A stretch of DNA of 64,000 nt from an uncultured Paracoccaceae bacterium. Lineage in GTDB: Bacteria > Pseudomonadota > Alphaproteobacteria > Rhodobacterales > Rhodobacteraceae. Below are positions 18,516 to 32,602 of the stretch, one piece after another. The notes beneath the pieces were generated by a model. That model had not been told where the DNA came from and made no database searches. It saw nothing but the letters and a program-made list of their open reading frames with translations. The stretch is from the NCBI GenBank assembly GCA_934500835.1, contig CAKSTR010000013.1:1-64000 (forward strand), written 5' to 3'. Each line of letters starts with the position of its first letter. Position 1 is the stretch's first letter. The translations under genes were made by a program, and so were the position numbers.

Positions 18516-19454
18516 ATGGCCGAGACGACCGCCACGCCGCGCAGCTTTCAGGAGATCATCCTGCGACTGCAGACCTATTGGGCGCGCCATGGCTGCGCAG
18601 TGCTGCAGCCCTATGACATGGAGGTTGGCGCCGGCACCTTCCACCCGGCGACCACGCTGCGGTCGCTGGGAACGAAGCCCTGGGCGGCGGCCTATGTCCA
18701 GCCCTCGCGCCGCCCGACCGACGGGCGCTATGGCGAGAACCCCAACCGGCTGCAGCATTACTACCAGTATCAGGTGATCATCAAACCCTCGCCCCCCGAC
18801 CTGCAGGCGCTGTATCTCGGCTCTCTGGCGGCGATCGGCATCGACCTTGCGCTGCATGACATCCGCTTTGTCGAGGATGACTGGGAAAGCCCCACGCTGG
18901 GTGCCTGGGGTCTGGGCTGGGAGGTCTGGTGCGACGGGATGGAGGTCAGCCAGTTCACCTATTTCCAGCAGGTCGGCGGTCATGACTGCCGCCCGGTCAG
19001 CGGAGAGCTGACCTATGGTCTGGAACGGCTGGCGATGTATGTGATGAACGTGGCCCATGTCATGGACATGCCCTTCAACGATCCGCAATCGCCGATCCCG
19101 CTGACCTATGGCGACATCTTCCGCCAGACCGAAGAGGAATACTCGCGCCACAACTTCGACGGGGCCACCACCGAGATGCTGTTCCGGCATTTCGAGGACG
19201 CGGAAGCCGAATGCCAGCGCCTGCTGGACTTCCCGCCCGAAGACCCCAAGACCGGCAAGCGCATCATCATGGCGCATCCGGCCTATGACCAGACCATCAA
19301 GGCCAGCCACCTGTTCAACCTTCTCGACGCCCGCGGCGTGATTTCGGTCACTGAACGGCAGGCCTATATCGGCCGGGTCCGCGCGCTGGCGAAGAAATGC
19401 GCCGATGCCTTCCGTCTGACCGAGGCGGGCAAGGATGCCGAGGTGGCGGCGTGA
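18516..19454 (+). CDS. glyQ: Glycyl-tRNA synthetase alpha subunit
   Basis: Alpha subunit of the bacterial alpha2-beta2 glycyl-tRNA synthetase, a class II enzyme. 312 residues. Markers: [17 protein letters not shown] near residue 11, [20 protein letters not shown] near residue 60, [26 protein letters not shown] near residue 137 and [12 protein letters not shown] near residue 165. ATG at 18516 is preferred over the open frame at 18459 because GGGGCAGG precedes it and the domain begins there. Its stop overlaps the next gene by 4 nt. Confidence 0.97.
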
Positions 19455-20005
19455 ATGCGAGCAAGCTGGCGGCGGGGGCGATCGTGATCAGTGCTTTGGT
19501 GGCGGGCGTCGCCATGTATTACCTGCAGGTCTACGCCTTCTATGACGAAGTGAAGTTCGAGCCGGGCAACGAGATCCGCCTCGTCCCCATCGCCAGCGAT
19601 GTGCCCGAAGCCATCGTGGCCGATGACGTGAAAGGGATCGACGGCGATGCCTCGCCGCTGAAATTCCGGGCCTGCTTTACCACGCCCCTGTCGCAGGCGA
19701 TGCTGACCGAAACCTACCGGCTTTACGAAGACCGGCCCGAACCCAACTATGCACCGGGCTGGTTCGACTGTTTCGATGCCGAAGCCATCGGCGAGGCGCT
19801 GGAGCGGGGCGAGGCGCTGGCCTTCCTGTCCGAACCCCTGAAGGAATACGGCATGGACCGCGTGGTCGCCGTCTTCCCCGATGGCCAGGCTTATGCCTGG
19901 CACCAGATCAACAGCTGCGGCAAGGCCTACTACGATGGCCGCGACCTGCCCGCCGGCTGCCCGACCCCGCCCGCCGATGACGGCACCCCCGAAGGGAGCA
20001 ACTGA
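19451..20005 (+). CDS. Small membrane-anchored protein between glyQ and glyS (DUF6446-like)
   Basis: Function unknown. I recall glyQ and glyS being separated by such a gene in other Rhodobacteraceae. 184 residues: one N-terminal membrane segment ([20 protein letters not shown]), then a periplasmic domain beginning YAFYDEVKF, with conserved-looking [33 protein letters not shown] and [17 protein letters not shown]. The three cysteines may form disulfides. It starts with GTG in a GTGA overlap with glyQ, and its stop TGA overlaps the glyS ATG, so all three are translationally coupled. Confidence 0.78.
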
Positions 20006-22269
20006 TGCCTGATCTTCTGATCGAACTCTTCTCGGAGGAAATCCCGGCGCGGTTGCAGGGCATGGCCCGCGAGGCGCTGAAGAAATCGGTGACGGACGGG
20101 CTGGTGGAGGCCGGGCTGACCTATGCCTCGGCCGGCGCCTTTTCCACGCCGCGGCGGCTTGTGCTGGCCGTCGAGGGGCTGACGGCGGAATCGCAGCCCC
20201 TGCGCGAGGAACGCAAGGGGCCGAACGTCTCGGCCCCGCCGGCCGCGCTGGAGGGGTTTCTGCGCTCGACCGGGTTGACGGTCGATCAACTGCAGAAGCG
20301 GGCCGAGAAGAAGGGCGAGGTCTATTACGCCGTGATCGAAAAGTCCGGCCGGGCGGCTGCCGCCATCGTGGCCGAGGTGCTGGAAGCCACCATCCGCACC
20401 TTCCCCTGGCCGAAGTCGATGCGCTGGGGGTCGGGTTCCCTGCGCTGGGTGCGGCCGCTGCATTCGATCCTGTGCCTGCTGACCGACGAGACCGGCGCGC
20501 AGGTCGTGCCGCTGACGGTCGAGGGCATCACCGCGGGCAATACCACCGAAGGCCACCGCTTCATGGGGGCGGGGCGCTTTGCCGTCACCGGCTTCGACGA
20601 TTACGCCGCCAAGCTGCGCCGCGCTCGCGTCATGCTGGACACGGCCGAGCGCGAGACCGCAATCTGGTCCGGCGCGCAGAACCTTGCCTTTGCCCAGGGG
20701 TTGGAGCTGGTCGAGGACAAGGGCCTGCTGACCGAAGTAGCCGGGCTGGTCGAATGGCCGGTGCCGCTGATGGGCCGCATCGCGCCCGAATTCCTTGGCC
20801 TGCCGCCCGAGGTGCTGCAGACCTCGATGAAGGAACACCAGAAGTTCTTTTCGGTGAAGAACCCGAAGACCGGCCGCATCGAAGGCTTCGTGACCGTGGC
20901 GAACATCGAGACCCCGGACCATGGCGCAACCATCCTGAAGGGCAACCAGAAGGTGCTTGCCGCCCGCCTGTCGGACGCGCGCTTCTTCTGGGAGAACGAC
21001 CTGCGGGTGGCGAAGGCGGGCATGGGCGAATGGGCCGAGGGGCTGAAGGCCGTGACCTTCCACAACAAGCTGGGGTCTCAGGCCGACCGGATCGACCGCA
21101 TCGCCGCGCTGGCGCGCGAGATCGCGCCCTTGGTGGGGGCCGACCCCGATCAGGCCGACCGCGCCGCCCGGCTGGCCAAGCTGGACCTGCGCTCGGCCAT
21201 GGTCGGCGAATTCCCGGAGTTGCAAGGCACGATGGGCCGCTATTACGCGCTGGAGGCCGGAGAGCCTGCGGCGGTGGCCGATGCCGCCCGCGACCACTGG
21301 CGGCCGAAGGGCGAGGGGGATTCGGTGCCCGCCGATCCGGTCTCGGTTGCCGTGGCGCTGGCCGACAAGATCGACACGCTGACGGGGTTCTGGGCGATTG
21401 ACGAAAAGCCTACGGGGTCGAAAGACCCGTTTGCCCTGCGGCGCGCCGCGCTGGGGGTGATCCGGCTGGTGCTGGGGAATGGGGTGCGTGGCGGTCTTCG
21501 TAGGCTTATCTGTAGCGCCTTAGTGGAGTTGTATGGGCTTTCACCCCTCATTTATCTGTATGAAGCCAACGGCGATCTGGAGTCCGACGAGTACTACTTC
21601 CGGAGTGAACTTGAGCCTACCCTTAGTAAGGAAGAAGGCGAGCTTGGTGATTTTGCACGGGTGCATATTAACGAGTGCCGTGCACGAAAACTGGTTCTGG
21701 GGGATGCTGTTCGGGCGGCGCTGCAAAAAATTTGGGTAGTCGCAGACGACCTCCTCTCCTTCTTCCACGACCGCCTCAAGGTCTACCTCCGCGACCAGGG
21801 CATCCGGCACGACATCATCGACGCCTGCCTTGCCATGCCCGGCAATGACGACCTCACCCTTCTGGTCAAACGGGCCGAGGCGCTGTCGGCCACGCTGAAG
21901 ACCGAGGATGGGGCGAACCTCATTCAGGGCTTCAAGCGGGCCAACAACATCCTGTCTCAGGCCGAGGCCAAGGATGGCGTGGAATATTCCTTCGGTGCCG
22001 ATCCGAAATATGCCGAAAGCGACGAGGAACGCGCGCTGTTCACCGCGCTGGATCAGGCCGAAGCGAAGATCACCCCGGCGATGGCGGCCGAGGATTTCCC
22101 CGCCGCCATGGCTGCGATGGCCGCCCTGCGCGCGCCGATCGACGCCTTATTCACCGCGGTGCAGATCAACACCGACAACGCCACCGTGCGCCGCAACCGG
22201 CTGAACCTGTTGCACCGGATCCGCGCTGTCTGTTCCGGCGTTGCCGATCTTTCACGCATCGAGGGCTGA
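20005..22269 (+). CDS. glyS: Glycyl-tRNA synthetase beta subunit with an atypical in-frame insert
   Basis: Beta subunit of glycyl-tRNA synthetase, binding the tRNA. It is 754 residues, longer than the usual 690 or so. Normal family sequence runs from [18 protein letters not shown] to about residue 496 (ALRRAALGVIRLVLGNGVR) and resumes near residue 582 (DLLSFFHDRLKVYLRDQGIRH). It then continues to GFKRANNIL and the anticodon-binding C-terminus. The segment between (about 497-581) has unusual composition; see the separate entry. The frame is intact. ATG overlaps the preceding stop (TGATG). Confidence 0.95.
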   Translation: MPDLLIELFSEEIPARLQGMAREALKKSVTDGLVEAGLTYASAGAFSTPRRLVLAVEGLTAESQPLREERKGPNVSAPPAALEGFLRSTGLTVDQLQKRAEKKGEVYYAVIEKSGRAAAAIVAEVLEATIRTFPWPKSMRWGSGSLRWVRPLHSILCLLTDETGAQVVPLTVEGITAGNTTEGHRFMGAGRFAVTGFDDYAAKLRRARVMLDTAERETAIWSGAQNLAFAQGLELVEDKGLLTEVAGLVEWPVPLMGRIAPEFLGLPPEVLQTSMKEHQKFFSVKNPKTGRIEGFVTVANIETPDHGATILKGNQKVLAARLSDARFFWENDLRVAKAGMGEWAEGLKAVTFHNKLGSQADRIDRIAALAREIAPLVGADPDQADRAARLAKLDLRSAMVGEFPELQGTMGRYYALEAGEPAAVADAARDHWRPKGEGDSVPADPVSVAVALADKIDTLTGFWAIDEKPTGSKDPFALRRAALGVIRLVLGNGVRGGLRRLICSALVELYGLSPLIYLYEANGDLESDEYYFRSELEPTLSKEEGELGDFARVHINECRARKLVLGDAVRAALQKIWVVADDLLSFFHDRLKVYLRDQGIRHDIIDACLAMPGNDDLTLLVKRAEALSATLKTEDGANLIQGFKRANNILSQAEAKDGVEYSFGADPKYAESDEERALFTALDQAEAKITPAMAAEDFPAAMAAMAALRAPIDALFTAVQINTDNATVRRNRLNLLHRIRAVCSGVADLSRIEG
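21493..21747 (+). other. AT-richer in-frame insert within glyS
   Basis: About 255 bp encoding 85 residues inside glyS. By hand count 21481-21780 is 162/300 G+C (54%), against 209/300 (70%) for 21181-21480. It uses codons rare around it (AGG, TTA, TTG, TCA, ATT). The encoded peptide is charged and protein-like (YLYEANGDLESDEYYF, ELGDFARVHINECRARKLV) and contains no stop. An internal palindrome, TGCACGG (21654-21660) with CCGTGCA (21678-21684), is present. Origin unknown; transfer or a mobile in-frame element is inferred. Confidence 0.75.
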
Positions 22270-22338: not shown

Positions 22339-24885
22339 GTGCAGAAACACGATCCGATTCTGGAATTCACCGAGATTACCCCCGCCGCCAGAATCGTGAC
22401 CGAGGATCACGGCTGGCGGGCGAAATGCCTGCAAAGGCTGGTCCGGCTTGACCTGCCGGTGCCGAAATCGGTGGCGCTTCCGGCGGCAACCGTGCGCTCC
22501 ATCGCGGCGGGCCATGGCGTCGATGCGGCGGGCATCCTTGATCTGTTCGGGGATGGGCCGCTGGTCTCTGTCCGGCCCTCGCCGGCGAATCCCGATTGGG
22601 GCGGGCCGGCGACCATCCTAAACATCGGGCTGAACGCCAAGCGCCACGCCAGGCTGGCCGAGACCCATGGCGAAACCGCCGCTGACGCGCTTTATGTCCG
22701 TTTTGTGCAGGCTTACGCGATCCACGTTGCCCGTCTTGACCCCGATATGTTCGAAGACGTCAAGCCGGGGCCGGGCGCCCTGCGCGAGGTGCTGAAGCTA
22801 TACGAGGCCGAGACCGACGATCCCTTCCCGCAGGACCCCGCCCAGCAGCTGTCCGAAGTGCTGCGCAGCATGGCGCGCGCCTGGGAGGGCACTTCGGCCC
22901 GCCTTCTGCGTCAGGCCAAGGGCGCGCCGCCCGAAGCCGCACTTGGCCTTGTGGTGCAAGAGATGGCGCAGGGCATCGGGCAGGGGATTTCCGGCTCGGG
23001 CGTGATCCAGTTCGTCGACCCGGTGACCGGACAGCCGCAGGTGACGGGGCGCTACCTTGGCCAAAGCCAGGGCCGCGATGCGCTGAAGACGCAGGAGGCG
23101 CTGTTCCTGACCCGCGACAAGCGCGGTCCCTCGCTGGAGGATGCCGCCCCGGCGCTGTTTGCCGAGTTGGTGGGCTTTGGCGTCGCCTGCCGCGCGCGCC
23201 TGCGCGAAGAAATGCAGATCGAATTCACCATCGAGGATGGCCGTCTGGCCGTTCTGGACGCGGTGAAGGTGCAGCGCAGCGCCCGGGCGGGTCTGCGGAT
23301 CGCGGTGGCGCTGGCCGAGGACGGCGTGATCGCCAAGGAAGAAGCCGTGCTGCGGGTGGAGCCGCGGGCGCTGTCGGAACTCTTGCACCATCAGGTTGAC
23401 CCGCGCGGGACCCGTGACGTCATCGCGCGCGGCATAGCGGCCTCGCCGGGGGCGGCGACGGGCCGGCTGGCGTTCAGCTCGGACGCGGCGCAGGCGGCTG
23501 CGGCGCGGGGCGAAGGCTGCATCCTTGTGCGGCGCGAAACCGCACCCGAGGACATTCGCGGCATGCATTCGGCGGTCGCGGTGCTGACCGAACGCGGCGG
23601 CATGACCAGCCACGCGGCTGTGATCGCGCGCGGCCTGGGCCTGCCTTGCGTGGTGGGGGCCAGCGACATGCGGCTGGATACGCGCGACCGCAAGCTGACG
23701 GCCGCCGACGGGCGCGTCTTCCGCGAAGGCGATGTCGTCACGCTGGACGGCACCAAGGGCGAGGCGCTGGCAGGTGCGGCGGACATGCTGCCGCCGGCGC
23801 TGGACGAGTCGTTCCGGCTTTTGCTGGCCTGGGCGGACGGGTTCCGCGACATCGGCATCCGGGCCAATGCCGACACGCCGTCGGACGCGGCCACCGCGCG
23901 CCGGTTCGAGGCGCAGGGCATCGGCCTGTGCCGGACCGAGCACATGTTCTTCGAAGAAGACCGTCTGGTGGTGATGCGCGAGATGATCTTTGCCGACACG
24001 CCTTCAGACCGGGCCGCGGCGCTGACGCGGCTTTTGCCGATGCAGCGCGAGGATTTCGTCCAGTTGTTCGAGATCATGCAGGGGCTGCCCGTCTGCATCC
24101 GCCTGTTCGACCCGCCGCTGCACGAGTTCCTGCCGCATGACCGCGAGGGGCTGCGGGCACTGTCCGAGGCGCTGGACCGGCCGCTGTCCGAAGTCACCCG
24201 CCGGGCCGACGCGCTGCGCGAGGTGAACCCGATGCTGGGGATGCGCGGGGTGCGGCTGGGCGTGGTGCTGCCCGAGATCTACGATATGCAGGCGCAGGCG
24301 ATCTTCGAGGCGACGCTGGAATCCGCCCGGCGCGGTGCCCCCGTGGTGCCCGAAGTGATGATTCCTCTGGTCAGTGCCCGGCGCGAGGTCGAGATGGTCA
24401 AGGCCCGGATCGACGGGGTGGCGGCCATGGTGCGGATGAAGGCCAAGGCCGATTTCGACTACAAGCTGGGCGTGATGGTGGAGACGCCGCGCGCGGCGCT
24501 GCGGGCGGGCGAGATCGCGCAGCACGCCGCCTTCCTGTCCTTCGGCACCAATGACCTGACGCAGATGACCTACGGGCTGAGCCGCGACGATGCCGGGCGG
24601 TTCATGAACACCTATGTGCAGCAGGGCGTCTATCCCGAGGACCCGTTCCACATTCTTGACGTGGACGGGGTGGGAGAACTCTTGCTGATGGGGGCCGAGC
24701 GTGGCCGCGCGACGCGCCCGGATCTTACCCTCAGCATCTGCGGCGAGCATGGCGGCAACCCCGAATCAATCGATTTCTGCCGCCGTGCGGGCTTTGACTA
24801 TGTGTCCTGCAGCCCCTATCGGGTGCCGATGGCGCGTCTTGCAGCGGCCCGGCTGGCCCTGAAAGATCGTGTGGGTAACTCATAA
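22339..24885 (+). CDS. Pyruvate phosphate dikinase-like PEP-utilising protein
   Basis: Resembles PPDK (pyruvate + ATP + Pi to PEP + AMP + PPi). 848 residues, a little short. The central phosphohistidine domain is intact (GGMTSHAAVIARGLGLPCVVG, His near residue 428). So is the C-terminal PEP/pyruvate TIM barrel (GIGLCRTEHMF, GTNDLTQMTYGLSRDDAGRF, CGEHGG with Cys near 806). The N-terminal ATP-grasp region is divergent: where PPDK has GGKGANLAEM it reads GWRAKCLQRL, and VSVRSGA..SMPGMMDT is VSVRPSPANPDWGGPATI. ATP use is therefore uncertain. The GTG at 22339 has GAAAGG 7 nt upstream; an in-frame GTG at 22294 has no ribosome site. Confidence 0.82.
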   Translation: MQKHDPILEFTEITPAARIVTEDHGWRAKCLQRLVRLDLPVPKSVALPAATVRSIAAGHGVDAAGILDLFGDGPLVSVRPSPANPDWGGPATILNIGLNAKRHARLAETHGETAADALYVRFVQAYAIHVARLDPDMFEDVKPGPGALREVLKLYEAETDDPFPQDPAQQLSEVLRSMARAWEGTSARLLRQAKGAPPEAALGLVVQEMAQGIGQGISGSGVIQFVDPVTGQPQVTGRYLGQSQGRDALKTQEALFLTRDKRGPSLEDAAPALFAELVGFGVACRARLREEMQIEFTIEDGRLAVLDAVKVQRSARAGLRIAVALAEDGVIAKEEAVLRVEPRALSELLHHQVDPRGTRDVIARGIAASPGAATGRLAFSSDAAQAAAARGEGCILVRRETAPEDIRGMHSAVAVLTERGGMTSHAAVIARGLGLPCVVGASDMRLDTRDRKLTAADGRVFREGDVVTLDGTKGEALAGAADMLPPALDESFRLLLAWADGFRDIGIRANADTPSDAATARRFEAQGIGLCRTEHMFFEEDRLVVMREMIFADTPSDRAAALTRLLPMQREDFVQLFEIMQGLPVCIRLFDPPLHEFLPHDREGLRALSEALDRPLSEVTRRADALREVNPMLGMRGVRLGVVLPEIYDMQAQAIFEATLESARRGAPVVPEVMIPLVSARREVEMVKARIDGVAAMVRMKAKADFDYKLGVMVETPRAALRAGEIAQHAAFLSFGTNDLTQMTYGLSRDDAGRFMNTYVQQGVYPEDPFHILDVDGVGELLLMGAERGRATRPDLTLSICGEHGGNPESIDFCRRAGFDYVSCSPYRVPMARLAAARLALKDRVGNS

Positions 24886-24912
24886 ATCTACACAATATCA
24901 TGTGTTTGCGAT

Positions 24913-24931
24913 TGTTTCTTAATGAGAAACA
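24913..24931. promoter_or_regulatory. Inverted repeat, candidate operator
   Basis: TGTTTCT (24913-24919), spacer TAATG, AGAAACA (24925-24931): perfect 7-bp arms in an AT-rich 200-bp leader ahead of the cell wall hydrolase gene. A dimeric regulator could bind here. The regulator is unknown. Confidence 0.45.
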
Positions 24932-24937
24932 TCAACA

Positions 24938-24961
24938 ATTTCGGCAAGATTCCGCCGAAAT
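24938..24961 (+). promoter_or_regulatory. Stem-loop in the cell wall hydrolase leader
   Basis: ATTTCGGC (24938-24945) and GCCGAAAT (24954-24961) are perfect 8-bp arms around an 8-nt loop, about 125 bp before the hydrolase start. It could be an operator or a leader RNA hairpin. No T-run follows, so it is not a standard terminator. Confidence 0.4.
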
Positions 24962-25084
24962 GCCGCTAATTTCGATGGCATTTTTGCAACACGGCGTGGA
25001 CCGCCCCCGCAAATAGCCCGTAAGTCCGCCCTCTGTTGCGTGATGGCTTTGGTCACACGCTGGGGGTAACGACGGGAACCTGCC

Positions 25085-25810
25085 ATGAACCGCCTGGTCA
25101 GGCACGCGGCACCCGCCCTTGTGGTCATCTCGATGACCCTGGGCGCGGCCGCCAACCAAGCAACGGCCGAACTCTCGGTCAGTACGAAAAATACGCCCGC
25201 GGGCGAGATCGGCCTGCAACTGGGCGATCTGCTGGGGCTGGAGCACAAGGGGCTGAAGCGCCTGCCCGAGGACACGCTTGGCGCGATTGCAAGTGGTCCT
25301 GCAAAGGCCGCTGCGCCGGTCAGGGCGCCCAAGGTGGTGGTCAAGAACACCGAGCCGAAGATCGACCCGGGCCTGCGCTATGACGCGGCCTGGCTGGCCG
25401 CGCAGCCGGTCCCCGAGGGCGGGGCCGAATGGCAGTGCCTGACCGAGGCGCTGTATTTCGAGGCGCGGGGCGAGACCGTCAAGGGCCAGTTCGCCGTGGC
25501 CGAGGTGATCCTGAACCGCCGCGACTCGGGGCTTTATCCGCATTCGGTCTGCGGGGTGGTGGGTCAGCGCGGCAGCGGGGCCTGTGCCTTCTCTTACGTC
25601 TGCGACGGGCATTCGGATGTCATGCGTGACCGCGCCAGCCGGGATCGTGCAGCGCGCATCGCCCGCGTCATGCTGGACGGTGCGCCGCGGCTGCTGACCG
25701 ACGGGGCGACGCATTTCCACACCCGGGCCGTGCGGCCGGGCTGGGCGCGCAAGTTCCGCCATACCGCCACCATCGGCGCGCATGTGTTCTATCGCCAGCC
25801 GGGCGCCTGA
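25085..25810 (+). CDS. SleB/CwlJ-family cell wall hydrolase
   Basis: Exported peptidoglycan hydrolase of the Hydrolase_2 (SleB/CwlJ) family, named after spore cortex enzymes but common in non-sporing alphaproteobacteria. 241 residues. A signal peptide (VVISMTLGAAANQATAE) and a linker of about 90 residues precede the catalytic domain. Family motifs: CLTEALYFEARGE near residue 119 with the catalytic glutamate, VAEVILNRRDSGLYPHSVCGVV near residue 139, and CAFSYVCDGHSD near residue 170. DGATHFHTRAVRPGWARK is the usual C-terminal block. A 200-bp AT-rich leader with two inverted repeats lies upstream. Confidence 0.87.
   Translation: MNRLVRHAAPALVVISMTLGAAANQATAELSVSTKNTPAGEIGLQLGDLLGLEHKGLKRLPEDTLGAIASGPAKAAAPVRAPKVVVKNTEPKIDPGLRYDAAWLAAQPVPEGGAEWQCLTEALYFEARGETVKGQFAVAEVILNRRDSGLYPHSVCGVVGQRGSGACAFSYVCDGHSDVMRDRASRDRAARIARVMLDGAPRLLTDGATHFHTRAVRPGWARKFRHTATIGAHVFYRQPGA

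Positions 25811-30997: not shown

Positions 30998-32602
<1,605 letters not shown>

Follow-up and report, generated by a model that had tools for sequence, protein, structure and literature searches.

The window analysed here, a stretch of 64,000 nucleotides, carries the genes for both subunits of glycyl-tRNA synthetase (GlyRS), and within the gene of the beta subunit lies a segment of markedly lower G+C content (Table 1). The glyS product is the GlyRS beta subunit: the PF02092 profile matched it at 607 bits (curated cut-off, 29.2) over residues 4-609, PF05746 matched at 30 bits, and Foldseek recognized the fold of the family in the predicted structure, with TM (query) values of 0.51-0.71 to 13 solved GlyRS chains, including 7yse, 7eiv and 8ie2, at E values of 0.001 or less. 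glyS is an essential gene. As a separate observation on gene location, glyS and glyQ were found together on a 197-kb plasmid of Sphingomonas parapaucimobilis (NZ_CP155756.1, 26086-28464, hit H13), and in Pseudorhodobacter turbinis glyS is located on a 1.58-Mb replicon (H6).

Table 1 Features of the glyS locus, in window coordinates
Feature	Position	Strand	Basis or remark
glyQ, glycyl-tRNA synthetase alpha subunit (partner)	18516..19454	+	PF02091
DUF6446 gene, between glyQ and glyS	19397..20005	+	PF20044
glyS, glycyl-tRNA synthetase beta subunit, 754 aa	20005..22269	+	ORF; PF02092, PF05746; Foldseek
Left edge, conserved stretch to LVLGNGVR	21442..21489	+	Third positions C-poor in AT-rich alleles
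Hypervariable slot content, residues 496-581, AT-rich insert allele	21490..21747	+	Slot comparison of relatives, composition
7-bp inverted repeat inside the insert	21654..21684		Chance level: equalled in 32% of codon-shuffled inserts
Right edge, encodes DLLSFFHDRLKV...	21748..21795	+	Codons mostly C-ending in AT-rich alleles

The AT-rich segment of glyS

An initial annotation, made from the sequence alone, had described a drop in G+C from 70% to 54% within glyS, and this was borne out by our recount, which gave 69.7% at 21181-21480 and 54.0% at 21481-21780. The boundaries then proposed (21493-21747; 51.8% G+C) were close to the span of the variable residues as delimited by relatives, in which the G+C content is about 52%. 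The lowest-G+C stretch of 255 bp in the entire window is found here, at 21495-21749 (51.4%, the window mean being 66.7%); the runner-up, at 24860-25114, comes close to this minimum (51.8%) and lies mostly between two ORFs, and a further low stretch occupies 31948-32202 (G+C fraction, 0.537). Codons with a share below 10% among the synonymous codons for their amino acid in the remainder of glyS make up 24 of the 84 insert codons (29%), as against 36 of 670 elsewhere in the gene (5%), so that the codons indeed are rare in the surroundings, as had been noted. At codon positions 1/2/3, the G+C values are 67/39/51% for the insert, compared with 72/46/89% for upstream glyS. The frame is open throughout the ORF, the insert is protein-like and the family sequence returns at DLLSFFHDRLKV, all in agreement with the first description. 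The excess length of about 60 residues that had been given for the protein is correct when minimal-slot relatives (about 674-687 aa) are the reference but not when the many long-slot relatives are, and the 7-bp palindrome likewise exists, but only at the level of chance. Composition of this kind is commoner in glyS than in its neighbours: 150-bp dips of more than 15 points under the ORF mean occurred in 16 of 77 glyS genes, whereas the 165 other long ORFs at these loci included 2 with such a dip.

Structure was predicted by AlphaFold2 with 67 sequences, which yielded a mean pLDDT of 90.6 (a run with 15 sequences gave 52). In this model, the slot begins after a helix at residues 477-491 and ends inside a long predicted helix, 550-597, the conserved part of which starts at 582. 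The insert contributes two short, moderately confident helices (498-509 and 513-521), and nearly all of residues 525-558 scored a pLDDT below 50; as modelled, therefore, the insert is largely a low-confidence excursion from a confident core.

Contents of the slot in relatives

Comparison with relatives placed the segment in a fixed slot of GlyRS beta, bordered by LVLGNGVR on the left and DLLSFFHDRLK on the right. Among the protein matches listed (120 of 7998 homologues), 106 could be parsed at the conserved flanking motifs, the regular expression having missed 14; their slots, with LVLGNGVR and DLLS counted in, measured 36-160 aa and had little sequence in common. DNA was collected for 80 loci from genome contigs, 30 from a family-wide sample (with matches in 191 of its 198 genomes), and a further 116 from those family-wide genomes; together with the window, 220 of the 227 loci were parsed, and removal of 7 duplicates left 213 distinct ones. 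The seven that failed comprise five in-frame slots missed by the regular expression (L001, L114, L146, L153, L200), one with a seemingly altered right edge (L030) and one containing Ns (L213). In the 81-locus sets, one parse missed 12 of the 81, and the first estimate of edge skew missed 2 of the 81.

In the locus DNA set, the slots were 18-142 aa long and fell into distinct kinds. A minimal slot of 31 aa or less was seen in 25 of the 213 loci; a conserved module of the EIADHGVF type, with a mean G+C 2.5 points under that of the gene, occupied 72; the remaining 116 were variable, and in 75 of these the AT content exceeded that of the gene by more than 8 points. When the 330 slots of loci and proteins were pooled, they offered 289 distinct cores with a length of 34 aa or more (shorter slots were excluded from clustering, here and in the genus set below), which phmmer at an E value of 1e-3 sorted into 172 groups: one of 73 members, corresponding to the conserved EIADHGVF module, 34 groups with 2-4 members each, and 137 with a single member. 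Several of the groups of 2-4 mix members from differently named genera. The only relative of the window insert that was seen is the insert of P0002, at 26% identity. It is to be noted, as an aside, that L068 and L208 have in common a GC-matched insert that ends in an identical stretch, PDLSDERVEKECALVLAGDLLA, better conserved than the remainder of the insert.

A class-wide sample in which 69 of 86 genomes matched supplied 20 loci, of which 17 were parsed and 3 failed. Long or AT-rich slots were found in some of these (L232, L233, L237, L245, L247), and the codon skew at the slot edges that is described below was present in L233 and L247 and absent in L237, the edge analysis having failed on 4 loci. 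Taken together, these comparisons provide good support for a slot that is hypervariable in many, though not all, of the sampled Rhodobacteraceae. As to whether close relatives carry a homologous and similarly composed segment, in which case the initial annotation would have considered it an ordinary lineage feature, AT-rich segments are indeed there in many of them but are mostly non-homologous. By sequence comparison, then, the segment in the window is one allele filling a hypervariable slot, rather than one conserved lineage insert.

Among close relatives, L002 and P0060 are 100% identical in the flanking protein, and their slots are unrelated; the window protein and P0003 are 98.9% identical outside the slot, and P0003 lacks the insert of the window. 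Since the protein database was clustered at 90%, pairs with the same insert are under-sampled and hidden in it, and a genus was therefore examined with one genome per species, namely the genus to which the genome of L015 (Paracoccus aminovorans) belongs. Here 124 of 125 genomes matched, and 90 loci were taken from them, mostly by match score and hence non-randomly; 89 were parsed, L323 being missed. Eight of the 89 had minimal slots, and the 81 longer ones formed 59 groups, 45 of them singletons. There were 14 pairs with at least 90% identity in the flanking glyS DNA, some loci occurring in more than one pair, and the contents were unrelated or absent in 12: both members were long and unrelated in 8 pairs, and a long slot faced a minimal one in 4, while 1 pair was of the same family and 1 was minimal on both sides. 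These sequence comparisons show that close relatives differ by replacement of the whole slot block. In L323 (at about 1738-2155), 1 of the 90 genus loci, stops interrupt the glyS frame within the slot and the right flank is again in register, which may reflect a sequencing error, a broken gene or something odder.

The flanks of such pairs were then inspected for synonymous differences. In L279/L293, which are 96% identical in DNA, these were clustered within about 28 codons to the left and 13 to the right of the slot, and L325/L332 had a wider cluster, spanning some 55 and 65 codons. In 27 pairs whose slots were unrelated (at least 89% identity), left synonymous identity was 0.73-0.80 at 20-180 codons and fell to 0.58-0.68 in the nearest 20, whereas in 6 pairs with slots of the same family or both minimal it was 0.75-0.85 in the nearest 20 codons. 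The pooled right flank had a synonymous identity of 0.74-0.88 near the slot, with no drop. Thus, the left-side pattern apparently fits traces of short-tract homologous replacement, and the right side is an exception that needs an explanation.

Protein constraint, edge codons and the alternatives they bear on

Inserts of the same family were compared by codon position in 12 pairs of loci (709 codons), chosen by protein similarity at 36% or more amino-acid identity. Identity at positions 1/2/3 was 0.58/0.65/0.30; since amino-acid similarity is kept while third positions are near-random, the modules are under constraint at the protein level within families. The 75 AT-rich inserts have a coding-like composition, with mean G+C of 59/39/50% by codon position. 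These sequence patterns show that the module is protein-coding and constrained as protein within its families. A hidden gene in another frame was also considered, but when stops were counted in five frames across 64 slots, the numbers were near those of codon-shuffled slots (largest gap, 4.12 versus 5.27), and the idea was rejected.

Within families, insert identity is often far under that of the hosts, but the conserved module behaves likewise, with 0.42-0.46 at a host identity of 0.70-0.80; since many family inserts diverge like this module at equal host distance, vertical descent is as good an account of them as exchange. Insert divergence was clearly in excess in a few pairs of close hosts, namely P0058/P0080 (0.41 at host 0.91) and P0024/P0085 (0.51 at 0.92), the corresponding identity of the conserved module being 0.66 (12 pairs, host 0.90 or above). 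In other pairs, the inserts were level with their hosts, as in P0023/P0111 (0.89 at 0.88) and L027/P0063 (0.70 at 0.74).

Counterparts of the inserts were also sought outside glyS. Among 732 candidates of GlyS-like length, the window insert matched itself alone, in a search of limited sensitivity, since it also missed the related insert of P0002; phages and plasmids gave no match, none of 295 family genomes matched in a search run without a positive control, and no significant copy was seen elsewhere in the 64-kb window. Of 394 genomes searched with a profile of one other insert family, 3 matched: two were its own glyS sources, and the third match was weak (E 0.007). When 86 inserts were compared with Pfam, a single weak match resulted, belonging to another family (PIMT_C, E 0.0043), with none for the window insert, and PHROGs returned no match for any of the 86. 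An intein was rejected, the window insert having no Pfam match and the 86 inserts no splicing-domain profile. Silent cassettes were rejected for 8 of 11 genomes, in which there was just one match to the right edge at 0-1 mismatches; the other three (G003, G004, G006), where such cassettes may or may not occur, had diverged right edges, with weak matches at about the control rate.

These results bear on a neutral alternative, according to which the loop is merely permissive, so that any in-frame DNA delivered by illegitimate recombination survives with no selection for diversity. The low confidence of the insert in the structure model, the 25 loci that do with a minimal slot, the near lack of similarity to known domains and the long or AT-rich slots in some class-wide loci are all in its favor. 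However, random in-frame DNA sits poorly with near-random third positions in families that keep their protein similarity, with coding-like composition at each codon position, with insert families common to several genera, with AT-rich dips that are commoner in glyS than in neighboring ORFs, and with a window insert that was not found as part of another gene among the candidates, phages, plasmids and 295 genomes searched. We consider this alternative unlikely, although it is the strongest of the rivals.

The codons at the edges of the slot raise a different possibility. The two leucine codons of the right edge are CTC in 91% and 88% of the 75 AT-rich alleles, in 17% and 21% of the 72 conserved-module alleles, and in 32% and 43% of the 25 minimal ones. 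The left edge of AT-rich alleles avoids C; this skew was first overestimated, because the conserved-module alleles share it. Over 173 loci with slots of at least 40 aa, Spearman correlations with the AT-richness of the insert were -0.64 for third-position C and 0.67 for G on the right, and 0.57 for C on the left, with a weaker -0.34 in a distal control. Taken alone, the variable class (n=101) gave -0.43, 0.46 and 0.38, respectively, and the conserved-module class (n=72) gave -0.09 (not significant), 0.38 and 0.28. Codon identity at the right edge stays at 0.85-0.91 over host protein identities from 0.60 to 0.95, compared with 0.61-0.75 in conserved-module alleles. Deamination of a particular strand at a break was considered as the cause of the skew but is a poor fit, since the bases that come in are frequently G at the left edge and C at the right edge, not T and A. 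An RNA stem joining the two edges was rejected, the alifold consensus of the AT-rich group containing no left-right helix. The skew may be sequence of a shared pool that travels with the module, or it may be a signal at the DNA level.

If it is the latter, the slot might belong to a DNA-level element, in which a mobile or diversifying machine, such as a site-specific nuclease, retrohoming or a novel kind of recombinase, recognizes the synonymously conserved right edge and the protein is a by-product. The CTC preference, the link between edge skew and the AT-richness of the insert, and a right-edge codon identity that is indifferent to host distance up to 0.95 speak for such a machine. The remaining evidence points away from it. 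Besides the missing left-right helix, the duplex energy of the edges was alike in all four groups (-39.0 to -41.6, each slightly stabler than codon-resampled controls) and no better in AT-rich than in conserved-module alleles; the window segment folded no better than shuffles (z 0.23), and no overlapping ORF was kept open. A reverse transcriptase domain (RVT_1) was found in 43 of the 125 genomes of the P. aminovorans genus, so that, of its 81 genomes with long slots, at least 38 are without a match. The inserts have no PHROG match and are constrained as protein, the correlation of right-edge C with AT-richness vanishes within the conserved-module class (that of right-edge G persists) and is partly shared by the distal control, and inside the genus the edges differ modestly from those of the 8 minimal alleles. 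We therefore rate a DNA-level element as improbable, slightly below neutral tolerance.

Two further alternatives can be dealt with briefly. A likeness to the palindromic elements of Rickettsia had been drawn initially, and an in-frame repeat family of that kind would agree with an in-frame, AT-richer, protein-like insert with a short inverted repeat, but it is highly improbable and the likeness was not upheld, given a repeat at chance level, no significant copy elsewhere in the window or, in the search without a positive control, in the 295 relatives, and relatives that mostly carry unrelated sequence at the slot rather than one shared repeat. A chimera of assembly or binning is the least credible of all: the exact protein occurs on 3 database contigs, the longest of 261,721 bp, the frame is intact, and a like pattern recurs in numerous further genomes, those of named isolates and throughout one genus, which argues against an artefact confined to one assembly.

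A probably swapped module in a core enzyme, and known systems

The joint reading that we favor, and regard as likely, is that the slot of GlyRS beta accepts an exchangeable protein module, which is swapped by recombination and is probably kept diverse by selection. Gene transfer agents are made by many Rhodobacteraceae, and donor DNA from other strains or species would enter the cell through them, or by transformation or phage; it would then recombine through the conserved flanks, whereby the module would be swapped. We infer a force that keeps the slot diverse, of which the least certain parts are that a putative binder or attacker of GlyRS, such as a phage protein, a toxin or some other partner, might select rare alleles, and that the module might be a changeable surface and not a catalytic part. 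Because GlyRS is cytoplasmic, whatever exerts such selection must do so within the cell. It is conceivable, although we are doubtful, that an arms race takes place there in which GlyRS beta, refreshed by recombination, serves as a polymorphic decoy or surface for recognition, that proteins of phages or competitors dock on it, and that the synonymous edges promote the swap. AtaT2 acts on Gly-tRNA. No account of a hypervariable GlyRS slot was found in the literature at the level of titles and abstract openings. At that level, FaRel2 (PMC11559606, with tRNA-Gly in the title) and AtaT2 (PMC7470980) indicate that toxins can strike the glycine axis, and nothing beyond this.

If selection does drive the diversity of the slot, agents hitherto unknown would be acting on GlyRS within these bacteria, and the module could serve as a ready bait for them. 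Regardless of the driving force, glyS near the slot makes a poor phylogenetic marker, and the slot marks a natural point of the synthetase at which insertions are tolerated.

Surface proteins and specificity proteins are known to have hypervariable modules that are swapped, and we know of none in a core enzyme of translation. The target-recognition domains of HsdS in restriction-modification systems are similar, in that unrelated variable blocks recombine between conserved flanks; the carrier here, however, is a tRNA synthetase subunit, and in 8 of 11 genomes the right edge has no further match at 0-1 mismatches, the edges of the other 3 being diverged. Pilins and outer-membrane receptors also have very different alleles in close relatives and allele families that extend across species, but GlyRS is an enzyme of the cytoplasm. 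Diversity-generating retroelements likewise combine a hypervariable coding region and, at its 3' border, a conserved DNA edge rich in C; the slot contents, in contrast, are unrelated and of different lengths rather than related by substitutions, and the reverse transcriptase is unmatched in at least 38 of the long-slot genomes counted above. With the palindromic elements of Rickettsia, the slot has in common an in-frame insertion into a conserved gene, with the frame kept open, but it is a single slot with unrelated contents, and neither a repeat family nor a meaningful palindrome is associated with it. Lastly, lineage-specific insertions of synthetases resemble it as extra loop modules, and the EIADHGVF type indeed behaves as one of them; those insertions, however, are stable within a lineage, whereas the glyS slot is often wholly different between sister species.
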